From positions 1 to 50,550 of the forward strand of contig MFJU01000022.1 of the NCBI GenBank assembly GCA_001779315.1: a stretch of DNA of 50,550 nucleotides, read 5' to 3'. The notes under the pieces were generated by a model. It had not been told where the DNA came from and did not search any database. It saw nothing but the letters and a program-made list of their open reading frames with translations. Within the stretch, counting starts at the first letter, position 1. Each line of letters starts with the position of its first letter. Positions 1-4,943 of the stretch are shown here, in pieces. The translations under genes and the position numbers were made by a program. This stretch comes from Candidatus Gottesmanbacteria bacterium RIFCSPLOWO2_01_FULL_42_22 (GTDB lineage Bacteria > Patescibacteriota > Microgenomatia > 2-02-FULL-39-11).

Positions 1-852
1 AGTAGCAATGGTATCAATCAGAACCGACACTTCGTCGCCTTCTCTTTCCTTAGAGATGCGGTCTTCGACTAATTTTTCAATTTCTTTATGATAGTCTTTT
101 TTGATGGTGTTTTTGATTTTTTCGATATTTTCGTTCGGGGACACAATAATTTTATCTTTACCGACTTCTGATTTTAATTCGTTAATTACTTTTATTATTT
201 TCTTGATTTCAGCCTGGGCAAAAGTAATGCCCTCAAACATATTTTCTTCACTGATTTCATTGGCTCCCGATTCAATCATGACAGTTTTATCAGGTGAGCC
301 GGAAACAACAAGATCCATTTCGGAAAATTCCATTTCTTTTTCACCGGGATTGACAAAAAAGCCTTTGTGGCCGTTTTCTGTCGGAACATAACCTATGCGG
401 ACTGCTGCAATCGGACCGTCCCAAGGAAGAGGGGAAATGGCCAGAGCAGCGCTTGTGGCTATAATTCCCAGCATGTCCGGTTCATTTTGGCCGTCCACAG
501 ACAGGACGGTAATAATCACCTGAACGTCATGATGGTAATTGGTATCGAAAAGAGGCCTGATGGATCTGTCTATCAGTCTGGCTCTTAAAATGGCATCATC
601 GGAAGGCCGGCCTTCACGTTTAACCCAACGGCTGCCTTTTATTCTGCCTCCGGCATATAATCTTTCTACGTATTCAACTGAAAGAGGGAAATAATCCAGA
701 TTGGATTCGCGGGCCGATGCAACCACTGTCGCTATAACCATGGTATCGCCGTAACGCGCCAAAACAGCTGCCGTTGCCTGTTGGGCGAAGCGACCGACTT
801 CCAAAGTTAGCGGACGGCCGCCGATTTCTATTGATTTTGAAGTGATTTTCAT
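1..852 (-). CDS. pnp: polyribonucleotide nucleotidyltransferase (PNPase), N-terminal part, runs off the window edge
   Basis: Manual translation of the minus strand from ATG at 852: MKITSKSIEIGGRPLTLEVGRFAQQATAAVLARYGDTMVIATVV...; RNase PH-like domain; next to rpsO. Not in the ORF track because it is open at the edge. Confidence 0.95.
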   Translation of the reverse strand, partial: MKITSKSIEIGGRPLTLEVGRFAQQATAAVLARYGDTMVIATVVASARESNLDYFPLSVEYVERLYAGGRIKGSRWVKREGRPSDDAILRARLIDRSIRPLFDTNYHHDVQVIITVLSVDGQNEPDMLGIIATSAALAISPLPWDGPIAAVRIGYVPTENGHKGFFVNPGEKEMEFSEMDLVVSGSPDKTVMIESGANEISEENMFEGITFAQAEIKKIIKVINELKSEVGKDKIIVSPNENIEKIKNTIKKDYHKEIEKLVEDRISKEREGDEVSVLIDTIAT

Positions 853-896: not shown

Positions 897-1166
897 TTAT
901 TTTGATAATTCGAGTTTTTTAATGATCTCCTTGTACCTGTCGTTCGCTTTACCGGAAAGATAAGTCAATAGCCGTCTCCTTTTTGATATCATCCCTAATA
1001 AACCGCGTCTGGAATGGTTGTCTTTAGGATTGCCTTTCAGGTGGCCGACCAGTTTATCGATCTTATGTGACAATAATGCGATTTGCACTTCCGGACTGCC
1101 GGTATCACCCTGTTTAGTGGCGAATTCGCCGATAATTTTCTTTTTGTCGTCAAGAGGTAAGGCCAT
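897..1166 (-). CDS. rpsO: 30S ribosomal protein S15
   Basis: 89 aa, FATKQGDTGSPEVQIALLSHKIDKLVGHLKGNPKDNHSRRGLLGMISKRRRLLTYL. Confidence 0.98.
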   Translation of the reverse strand: MALPLDDKKKIIGEFATKQGDTGSPEVQIALLSHKIDKLVGHLKGNPKDNHSRRGLLGMISKRRRLLTYLSGKANDRYKEIIKKLELSK

Positions 1167-1270: not shown

Positions 1271-2308
1271 TTAAAGAAGCGTTGAGCCTTTATATATTTT
1301 AGGCTTTAACCAATCAGGGGGTGTTTCCGGAGGGGAGCCGGATTCCCTGGTTGAGGGTGTCTGACCGGCAACCTGTTTTTGCTGGGTTTGCGGTCCCTTT
1401 GACAGGAAAGGTTGAGAAGGTTGTTGAGGATTGGATTGTGGCGGTTGTGGTGATTGCGGTTGTCTGACAAAAGGACGCGGACTCTTGGAGAAAGTGAAAG
1501 GTTTTTGAGAAGGTGTCTGCTGCGGGAATTGAGGCAGATTTTGAGCTATTTTTGTTCTGGGTTGCTTGTTTCTGGCCCCGTTTTTCAAGAGCAAAGCGGC
1601 TGTTTCAAAGGTGGAAGCAGATACCCGGGCAGATGAATAGTTGTCGGTTTTATCAGTAAGACCGGCCAGAAGATTGGTAGCAATATCCGGTTCCATAGAC
1701 AATCCCATATCACTAATGAGCGAAGCAGTCAGCTCCGAGATCGAAGAGGCTGATTCATCGATAAGATTTATTTTTCCGAAATTCTGATTGCTTGTTTCTA
1801 TGTCTATATTGATGAGCGGTTTTTCCTGAAACAAGTTTTGATTTGCATTAAAGAGGTTGGAAGCATCGTCCAATTTATTGACTCCGATGGTCATTATGGC
1901 ATCTGTTGAACCGCCGCTGTATTTGTATTGCATCATTTCAGGGGTAATGGCCGGATATCCTTCCCTGGGTTCGATGACTAAATTGAACGTATCGTTTTCA
2001 ATGTTATAACTGACTTTTTCGATTGATCCTTCCTGATAAGGAAAGGATATAATTAAATTCCTGCCGTTATCGCTGCCTATAGTTTTGCCGATTTTATCAA
2101 CAGCGATAAGTTCGTTATATCCGACAGTCATTTCTGTGGGTGAAACCACCGATATTTGTTTGCCGGCTGCTGACAGCGACAAGTAGAAAGACAAGGCCGA
2201 AGCTACCGCATCATATGATGGGTTTTGCCCAAGTACGATCAGGATGGATTTGGCATTTTCCAGAATGGTTCTGGTTTGATTGATGTTATCCCGGTTAAGA
2301 TTGGCCAT
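1271..2308 (-). CDS. NrnA/DHH phosphoesterase-like protein, apparently catalytically degenerate, with P/Q-rich C-terminal tail
   Basis: NrnA-like N-terminal fold (ILIVLGQNPSYDAVASALSFYLSL; INIDIETSNQNFGKINLIDESASSISEL); position between infB and rpsO. Start taken at MANLNRDN (2308). Confidence 0.7.
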   Translation of the reverse strand: MANLNRDNINQTRTILENAKSILIVLGQNPSYDAVASALSFYLSLSAAGKQISVVSPTEMTVGYNELIAVDKIGKTIGSDNGRNLIISFPYQEGSIEKVSYNIENDTFNLVIEPREGYPAITPEMMQYKYSGGSTDAIMTIGVNKLDDASNLFNANQNLFQEKPLINIDIETSNQNFGKINLIDESASSISELTASLISDMGLSMEPDIATNLLAGLTDKTDNYSSARVSASTFETAALLLKNGARNKQPRTKIAQNLPQFPQQTPSQKPFTFSKSPRPFVRQPQSPQPPQSNPQQPSQPFLSKGPQTQQKQVAGQTPSTRESGSPPETPPDWLKPKIYKGSTLL

Positions 2309-2351: not shown

Positions 2352-3845
2352 TTAGCCTATAGATATTATACTATCACCTGTCAAGACAGCCATGTTGCCG
2401 GAAAGTCCGATACCGATTTCTGTGCCTGTTTCTGCTTTAGTGATATCGGTTTTCTGCTGTTTCAGTGATTTAATTTTTATCCTGCCGATCTCTTCGTCAT
2501 TACGGGTAACCTTTATTTGATCCCCTTTAGCGATTCTTCCGGATGTTACTTTGGCTCCTAAAACCGTCTCTCCTTTAATATTAAAAACTGCTAGGACTTT
2601 AGCTGTACCGAAAACTTCAACCAAATCACCTTTTCTTAAAGCTTCAATGACTTCATCCAATTCATCTAAAAGCTCATAAATTATATTGTAAGTTTTGATA
2701 AGGACTTTTTCCGATTGGGCTAATTTAAGGACTCTGGTATCAACTTTCAGAGAAAAACCGATAATCAAGGCCTTTGTGGTTTTGGCCAGCAAAACATCCG
2801 ATTCGGAAATATTGCCAACAGCTGAGGAGATTGTTTCAACTTTGTTGCCGACTGCGGAAGTGATAGCTTCTAAAGTTCCGGCAGTATCAGCTCTCAAAAT
2901 GATCCTGATGTGTTGTTCTTCCAACGCATCCTCGCCTTCGGGGGGAATAATATTTCTCTTTTCGGGAAATGTAAGCACTTTGGCAGGAGAAGTCATGATT
3001 TCCGTTTCTGATTTGAGGTAAACTTTGCTACCGATTTTAGGCAATACTTTCCAGCCTAAGACTTCAGCCGGATCACCGCCGGTAACCGATGTTAAAGGAT
3101 GACCCTGCCAGTTGATTAGAGCCCGGATTCTGAAAACCTGATTTTCGTAAACTACATCATCAGCTACGCTTATAGATCCGCTTCTGACTATTATGGTGGC
3201 TGTAATTCCTTTATTTTTTGAGAGTAGAGATTCAATGACAACCGCTTCAAAATTATTTTCGGTTTGTTTGACCATGAATAGCTCGTTTAATAACAAAATC
3301 ATTTCCAAAAGCTTATCAATACCCGTGCCATCTTTGGCGGAAACCCCGACCATGGGTGTTTCTCCGCCGTATTCCTCTAAATTAACTCCTTTTTTTGACA
3401 GCTGTTTTTTAACTATTTCCTGATTAATATTGGGCAAATCAATTTTATTTAAAGCAACGATAAAAGGAATTTTAGCTTTTTTAATATGTTCTATTGATTC
3501 GATGGTTTGAGGTTTTACCCCGTCATTAGCAGCAACGACAAGAATGGCAATATCGGCAACTGTGGCTCCCCGGCTTCTCATTTCCGCAAAGGCCTGGTGA
3601 CCGGGAGTATCTATAAAAGTAATTTTATTAGGATAGTTTGGCTGTTTTAAAAGGGTTTTTGGAACATCTATTTGGTAAGCACCGATATGCTGGGTAATTC
3701 CTCCATGCTCCCGGTTTGCTATATTAGTTTTTCTGATAGTATCAAGGAGAGTCGTCTTTCCGTGGTCAACATGGCCTAAGACAGCTACAACAGGAGGCTT
3801 GGTTATCACAGAGTTTTGAACTTCGACTTTTTTGTTTTTGGCCAT
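2352..3845 (-). CDS. infB: translation initiation factor IF-2 (short form)
   Basis: [40 protein letters not shown]. Confidence 0.97.
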   Translation of the reverse strand: MAKNKKVEVQNSVITKPPVVAVLGHVDHGKTTLLDTIRKTNIANREHGGITQHIGAYQIDVPKTLLKQPNYPNKITFIDTPGHQAFAEMRSRGATVADIAILVVAANDGVKPQTIESIEHIKKAKIPFIVALNKIDLPNINQEIVKKQLSKKGVNLEEYGGETPMVGVSAKDGTGIDKLLEMILLLNELFMVKQTENNFEAVVIESLLSKNKGITATIIVRSGSISVADDVVYENQVFRIRALINWQGHPLTSVTGGDPAEVLGWKVLPKIGSKVYLKSETEIMTSPAKVLTFPEKRNIIPPEGEDALEEQHIRIILRADTAGTLEAITSAVGNKVETISSAVGNISESDVLLAKTTKALIIGFSLKVDTRVLKLAQSEKVLIKTYNIIYELLDELDEVIEALRKGDLVEVFGTAKVLAVFNIKGETVLGAKVTSGRIAKGDQIKVTRNDEEIGRIKIKSLKQQKTDITKAETGTEIGIGLSGNMAVLTGDSIISIG

Positions 3846-3872: not shown

Positions 3873-4943
3873 TCATGATCCGGAGGTTTTCTCAGTCTTC
3901 TCGGTATCTTCTTTTTTCTCGGTTGATTCAGCTTTTTCCTTTTTTTCCACAGTTTTTTTCACAGTTTTTTCTTCTGTCTTGACTGCAGATTTTCCGGACT
4001 TAGATTTAATATCAATTTTGTAATCGGTGAGTTTTGCGGCTAAGCGTACATTCTGACCGTCCTTACCGATAGCCAATGAAAGCTGGTCTTCTGGTACCAT
4101 CGCTTCGGCAGTTTTTTTCTTTTGGTTTAAGATGATATCGATATCTTTTGCCGGAGCTAAAGCTTGGGTTATAAATATTTTAGAATCATCACTCCACTGG
4201 ATAATATCAACCTTTTCCATCCCTCCCAGCTCATTAATGACAGCCTGGACCCTGACGCCTTTTTGTCCGACACAACTGCCTACGGGATCAACACCAGATT
4301 GTGTAGAGGCTACTGCGATTTTGGTACGATTACCGGCTTCCCTGGCAATAATTTTCAAAACAACTGCGCCGTTATTTACTTCGGGTACTTCGCGTTTAAA
4401 AAGCGCAGAAACTAATCCTTTCGAGGCGCGGGAAACGATTATTTCATTTCCACGCATGGTTTGTCTTATAGTTTCAATATAAAAGGTCAATCTTTGGTTA
4501 AGCCGGTATTTTTCGTTGGGTATTTGTTCTTGAGGTGGCATGACTCCTTCAGCCCTGCCGATATCGACAATGATATTAGGACCGTCAAATCTGAGAATCA
4601 TACCGTTTACAATCGTGCCTACTTTGGTTGTGTAATCTGCAATGATGGCCTTTTTTTCCGCTTCTCTGATCCTTTGGAGGATTACCTGTTTGGCTGTCTG
4701 AGCGGCAATTCTGCCGAAACCGGCAGGTGTTATATCCTTTTTATCTTTAAAAACTTTAGCCTCTCCAGATTGGGGGTCGATAGTTATTTCCAACTCTTCA
4801 ATTTCTTCTGTTCCATAATCCTTGCGGTAAGCTGCCAAAATAGCAGCTTTAATAGTATCAAGAACGATATCAGGATCAATGCCCCTTTCGGTGGCTACCT
4901 GATTTAAAGCTAATGCAAATTCACTTCTGACTATTGCCGGCAT
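3873..4943 (-). CDS. nusA: transcription termination/antitermination protein NusA
   Basis: S1/KH region: SCVGQKGVRVQAVINELGGMEKVDIIQW; K/E-rich C-terminal tail. Confidence 0.96.
   Translation of the reverse strand: MPAIVRSEFALALNQVATERGIDPDIVLDTIKAAILAAYRKDYGTEEIEELEITIDPQSGEAKVFKDKKDITPAGFGRIAAQTAKQVILQRIREAEKKAIIADYTTKVGTIVNGMILRFDGPNIIVDIGRAEGVMPPQEQIPNEKYRLNQRLTFYIETIRQTMRGNEIIVSRASKGLVSALFKREVPEVNNGAVVLKIIAREAGNRTKIAVASTQSGVDPVGSCVGQKGVRVQAVINELGGMEKVDIIQWSDDSKIFITQALAPAKDIDIILNQKKKTAEAMVPEDQLSLAIGKDGQNVRLAAKLTDYKIDIKSKSGKSAVKTEEKTVKKTVEKKEKAESTEKKEDTEKTEKTSGS

Follow-up and report, generated by a model that had tools for sequence, protein, structure and literature searches.

A putative pseudoenzyme of the DHH family encoded between infB and rpsO across the class Microgenomatia

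The window analysed here, a stretch of 50,550 nucleotides from Candidatus Gottesmanbacteria bacterium RIFCSPLOWO2_01_FULL_42_22 (contig MFJU01000022.1), starts with a cluster of genes on the minus strand, as are all features described below. The cluster comprises nusA (3873..4943), infB encoding translation initiation factor IF-2 (2352..3845), a gene for a protein of 345 amino acids (1271..2308), rpsO encoding ribosomal protein S15 (897..1166), and pnp encoding PNPase (1..852), which is cut by the contig end. Matches to Pfam and, for pnp, to TIGR03591 (at 34-825) confirm the neighbourhood that an earlier note on this DNA had proposed from the nucleotide sequence alone. The gene of interest, situated directly downstream of infB and directly upstream of rpsO, starts with an ATG at 2308 and ends with a stop codon at 1271-1273 (coding 1274-2308, from the list of open reading frames), and a genome search found it to be single copy. 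We refer to its product as the pseudo-DHH protein, for reasons given below.

The N-terminal part of the protein (residues 1-245; 1574..2308) is a DHH-type domain, as indicated by sequence profiles and structure prediction alike. The Pfam DHH profile (PF01368) matches it with an E-value of 1.3e-5 and 25.9 bits, slightly under the gathering cutoff of 28.1; phmmer links it to solved structures of NrnA and RecJ-like proteins with E-values of 9e-9 to 1e-6; and a profile built from 61 family members reaches E 5e-25 against PDB, the matches listed being NrnA-type chains aligned mainly from motif II onward. The AlphaFold model has pLDDT values mostly above 90 in this domain, except for an insert region discussed below, and a Foldseek search with the model, carrying out the comparison with NrnA that the earlier note had suggested, retrieves NrnA-type phosphodiesterases (E 5e-15) with TM1595 at rank 1. 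These results confirm that the kinship with DHH proteins exceeds chance, and the retained DHH scaffold noticed earlier is thus real. Both the domain sequence and the fold of the DHH superfamily are recognisable.

The catalytic centre is a different matter. The active site of Bacillus subtilis NrnA consists of H20, D24, D26, D80, H103, H104 and D156, with H103, D26, D80 and D156 holding metal 1 and D24 and H20 holding metal 2 (PMC5593865). Based on an alignment and listed in the same order, the equivalent residues in the pseudo-DHH protein are G27, S31, D33, G142, I170, E171 and K220, i.e. five of the six metal ligands are gone and D33 (equivalent to D26) is the sole survivor. Motif I is reduced to the remnant GQNPSYD (residues 27-33; 2210..2230), in which G27 and S31 stand in place of H20 and D24; the motif II position has changed from D80 to G142 (1883..1885), the DHH motif reads D169-I170-E171 (1796..1804), and the motif IV position has K220 instead of D156 (1649..1651). 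That the catalytic signature is erased had been recognised correctly in the earlier note, although its reading of the DHH motif as IET was shifted by one residue. When INIDIETSN is aligned to INIDHHxSN, DIE falls on DHH, and the Asp of the signature survives as D169. The DHH signature and the two-metal site expected of the superfamily are therefore both missing, with DIE in place of the former and only D33 left of the six ligands.

Aligning homologues from relatives, as the earlier note had advised, revealed loss of the DHH site in all members of the class that we read. The alignment brought 68 such sequences together with 40 intact relatives and seven canonical NrnA proteins; the 68 comprise 67 from Microgenomatia and one (L095) from a Microgenomatia-like contig in a genome assigned to another class. 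This genome (G204:C73 for the contig) harbours its own family member on a different contig in addition to the Microgenomatia-type dead copy, perhaps reflecting contamination. None of the 68 sequences retains more than two of the five core ligands (one in 42, two in 26). The Asp corresponding to D33 is conserved in 67/68, the motif II position is occupied by Gly in 48/68, and Asp is absent from the common residues at the motif IV position; the 68 members show no evident alternative set of conserved His, Cys, Asp or Glu residues. The replacement is, however, not the clean one that had been envisaged. In some members the His of motif I, the Asp of motif II or the last His of the DHH signature is retained, and some, such as L016 with THENPNQDSLGS and DYH, preserve more of the ancestral appearance, so the active site appears to have undergone graded erosion. 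The pocket residues vary widely, with Ser, Thr, Asn or Asp at the position of D24 and Asn, Thr, Arg, Lys or Ile at that of H103, and E192, N174 and N181 are common to the dead members and their active relatives.

A Pfam search with the pseudo-DHH protein gives no match to DHHA1, and the GGGH motif occurs in none of the 68 aligned sequences. The earlier note had thus rightly reported that a Pro/Gln-rich tail replaces DHHA1, but the Pro/Gln-rich part is a variable linker, and the conserved element, which had been missed, is a motif at the very end of the protein. The linker (about residues 250-328; 1325..1561) is predicted to be disordered (pLDDT of about 40-52) and is rich in Pro and Gln (23% Pro and 22% Gln in residues 250-327); its length varies about tenfold, from 17 to 171 residues, among 61 members, and its Pro/Gln richness is restricted to the window's protein and some of its relatives. 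The 16 residues at the end, PPDWLKPKIYKGSTLL (residues 330-345; 1274..1321), constitute the best conserved C-terminal stretch across the class. The motif, P-P-D-W-L-x-P-K-I-[YF]-[KR]-[GS]-[ST], follows the linker and ends about 60 of the 68 members, with its PK almost always starting 9-14 residues from the C-terminus. In 66 tails anchored on the motif Pro (which is hence 66/66 by construction) the Trp is found in 58 and the Lys in 62. Four members (L071, L075, L076 and L137), possibly also L078, have no recognisable motif, which is thus not required everywhere. The own genome has a single match to the strict pattern, and matches to a looser pattern in 57 genomes fall mostly in the pseudo-DHH gene, so we rejected the idea that it is a tag common to other proteins; one extra match that we examined corresponds to an implausible reading frame. 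Docking peptides typically combine a variable tether with an invariant end, and the sequences suggest that this tail may be one.

Of 59 Microgenomatia genomes, 55 have a match to the pseudo-DHH protein. In three of the four exceptions (G017, G018 and G054) rpsO and an intact pnp are missing as well; the absence of rpsO indicates that the locus was not assembled there rather than that the gene was lost, and for the same reason co-loss of the gene with PNPase, which these three of the four misses might suggest, was rejected. The sole real absence is in G037, where other genes lie upstream of rpsO-pnp. Internal stops are absent from nearly all of the matches listed. Close pairs show dN values of about 0.07-0.29, and their dS, wherever an estimate was possible, is at least 1.5, so dN/dS is far below 1, a rough sign of purifying selection given the saturation of dS. 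In addition, seven positions (A36, N84, G132, N212, N223, F234 and E235) are newly fixed in the dead lineage, i.e. they are not fixed, or are different, in active relatives, which speaks for new constraint rather than decay. Catalytic residues have thus been lost in a conserved lineage under selection, as is expected of a pseudoenzyme. As judged from sequence comparison, the lineage is ancient, class-wide, under purifying selection and marked by newly fixed residues, and the loss in every class member read, the occurrence in 55/59 genomes and the low dN/dS all uphold the earlier notion of a pseudoenzyme retained on a DHH scaffold.

The origin of this lineage is illuminated by the insert between motifs I and II (about residues 84-131; 1916..2059), which appears from alignments and predicted secondary structure to consist mostly of strands. 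It is about 45 residues long and absent from canonical NrnA, whose matches split around it. By its insert and its phylogenetic position the window's protein belongs to an insert-bearing DHH family of Patescibacteria, which at E <= 1e-5 has matches in 215 of the 241 Patescibacteria genomes sampled, a count that includes cross-hits to NrnA; the family searches covered Patescibacteria and PDB. Among 96 sequences from other classes that we read, 40 have all five core ligands (38 of these with GGGH), seven have four of five, and the others have three or fewer. The seven with four ligands (L124, L128, L157, L161, L162, L176 and L209) all lack the motif I D24 and GGGH and keep DHH and motif IV; they may represent an intermediate stage of inactivation. 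Intact members often occur directly upstream of rpsO-pnp, the same slot as that of the dead gene in Microgenomatia, which supports their orthology. Canonical NrnA forms a separate clade in a quick-mode tree, where even canonical NrnA from the same class is split off by a starred branch (99), and of the 22 genomes that we checked 21 have it besides the family member; many of these place it no more than a few hundred bases from rbfA. In other Patescibacteria, then, NrnA is found beside rbfA and the insert-bearing protein upstream of rpsO-pnp or elsewhere. The window's protein does not group with canonical NrnA, carries the insert and has no DHHA1 with GGGH; on this sequence evidence it is a paralogue of NrnA, not NrnA itself, and the "NrnA-position" label initially given to it does not hold.

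Activity has apparently been lost more than once in the family. The quick-mode tree, which has long branches, places all Microgenomatia members together with neighbouring lineages in one dead clade (80 rows), assigns 35 rows to a second dead clade, and puts a dead pair (L175 and L193) among active rows. In an AU test, a tree uniting the two large dead groups was not rejected (p 0.093), so their origin by clearly separate losses was not upheld; with L175/L193 among active rows, two losses are the minimum. From these sequences, at least two losses can safely be assumed, and three are likely. About 20 loci of the second dead clade lie between tsaE (on the opposite strand) and a gene for a PilB-type T2SSE ATPase (e.g. 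L145:3936-6836 and L159:177-3125; further members are L123, L126, L143, L150, L167, L169-L171, L181, L182, L186, L188, L190 and L216). An MshEN domain is present in both of the ATPases checked (L145 and L159), and this second pseudo-DHH lineage may be tied to type IV pili.

Canonical NrnA occurs in only 10 of the 59 Microgenomatia genomes, and Orn-sized RNase_T open reading frames in about four, so most genomes of the class show neither of these candidates for the clearance of 2-5 nt RNAs. A search for another oligoribonuclease, which the earlier note had recommended, gave no NrnA match in the own genome, an absence to be read in the light of genome incompleteness (93%); its DHH matches are a RecJ-like protein (L088), a DHH protein of 287 amino acids (L089) and the pseudo-DHH protein. 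With canonical NrnA missing from 49/59 genomes, the pseudo-DHH protein is unlikely to be simply a regulator of an active NrnA twin.

What, then, might the protein do? The absence of a metal site and of a substrate domain, together with the docking-type tail, makes a structural adaptor the best-supported reading, and to the proposal that the protein is catalytically dead and was kept by Microgenomatia and adjacent lineages as an adaptor, here in the infB-rpsO-pnp operon, we lend about as much belief as doubt. A DHH fold kept without an intact two-metal centre or the substrate-binding DHHA1, and with selection on the rest, would point to a non-catalytic role. A conserved partner would serve as the dock for the terminal peptide, the DHH domain would hold a second partner or dimerise, and the flexible linker would let both ends act at a distance. 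The likeliest partners would be proteins encoded in the same operon (PNPase, S15, IF-2 or NusA) or the surrounding machinery of RNA decay and translation, the operon position being weak evidence of interaction. More tentatively, and with doubt outweighing confidence, we envisage a near-universal Microgenomatia adaptor, derived from a dead nuclease, that would attach by its C-terminal peptide to PNPase, the ribosome or some other central machine and organise translation or the decay of RNA, in cells mostly devoid of recognisable NrnA and Orn.

The main rival to the adaptor is a ligand sensor, in which the dead pocket would bind a mononucleotide, nanoRNA or cyclic dinucleotide uncleaved and binding would alter the contact between tail and partner. 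Sensing of a small ligand would likewise preserve the fold without catalysis, and the retention of the pocket-lining D33, along with E192, N174 and N181, which active relatives have too, is compatible with it; NrnA, however, holds its substrate by DHHA1 with its GGGH motif (PMC5593865), which all 68 members have lost, and pocket residues such as those at the D24 and H103 positions vary widely, so we consider a sensor unlikely. Persisting catalysis via a rearranged or single-metal site could draw on the retained motif I Asp and, often, that of DHH, yet among the NrnA ligands D33 alone is consistently conserved, conserved His or Cys residues are lacking, a new acidic cluster is not evident, and DHHA1 is lost, which renders an altered enzyme highly improbable. 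As for a decaying gene on its way out, the uneven erosion of motifs between members is what one would expect, but the occurrence in 55/59 genomes with hardly any internal stops in the matches listed, the low dN/dS (though with dS saturated in many pairs), the newly fixed residues and the near-invariant tail leave this explanation with scarcely any credibility.

A further idea starts from the position of the gene. In Escherichia coli rbfA follows infB, and the pseudo-DHH protein could conceivably be a stand-in factor for ribosome assembly or translation that took over the job of a missing RbfA. RbfA (PF02033) indeed gave no match in the sampled Microgenomatia listed, nor in any of the 12 genomes from outside Microgenomatia that belong to the same dead clade (L112, L117, L135, L136, L138, L139, L194, L199, L200, L203, L204 and L210), against its presence in 38/47 genomes with intact or 4-of-5 members. 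RbfA is, however, also missing from 11/35 genomes in the second dead clade and from the remaining 9/47 of the active group, and it is patchy across CPR anyway (969/2177; PMC6744442). Shared ancestry explains the pattern and the two folds are unrelated, so such a replacement seems to us quite improbable.

Our literature search, which extended to few subscription journals, encountered no description of the pseudo-DHH protein and nothing pairing Patescibacteria with oligoribonuclease or CPR protein families with the DHH family, and a paper on CPR protein families does not mention DHH (PMC6744442). A whole bacterial class retains a dead DHH protein in an operon for core information processing. Since sister classes have intact relatives, the change from enzyme to non-enzyme is traceable step by step, and the conserved tail peptide offers a direct bait for a search for partners. 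To our knowledge, Cdc45 is the main case described so far of a dead DHH phosphoesterase.

With NrnA (B. subtilis NrnA, Mycobacterium tuberculosis Rv2837c and Thermotoga maritima TM1595) the window's protein has the DHH fold and sequence kinship in common, and it differs in lacking five of six metal ligands and DHHA1, in having the insert, the disordered linker and the terminal motif, and in belonging to a separate clade. Closer to it are the intact family members (e.g. L114, L118, L125 and L146), with the same insert, a place in the same clade apart from canonical NrnA and, at many loci, a position upstream of rpsO-pnp; they keep 5/5 core ligands and nearly all of them GGGH/DHHA1, and they lack the PKIYK tail motif. 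The second dead clade (e.g. L145 and L159) shares the family, the insert and the loss of the active site, but it keeps a region of DHHA1 length, lacks the tail motif and often precedes the gene for a PilB-type ATPase. The known precedent for the fate of the protein is Cdc45, a subunit of the eukaryotic CMG helicase derived from RecJ/DHH proteins, which has inactivating mutations in three of the four DHH motifs and serves as a scaffold, a non-catalytic part of a complex (PMC4873980). Cdc45 stems from the RecJ branch rather than being NrnA-like, keeps DHHA1 and operates in a different system, and no sequence match between it and the window's protein was found; by analogy, the latter may be viewed as a bacterial, NrnA-like counterpart of Cdc45 in kind, not as a member of the Cdc45 family.
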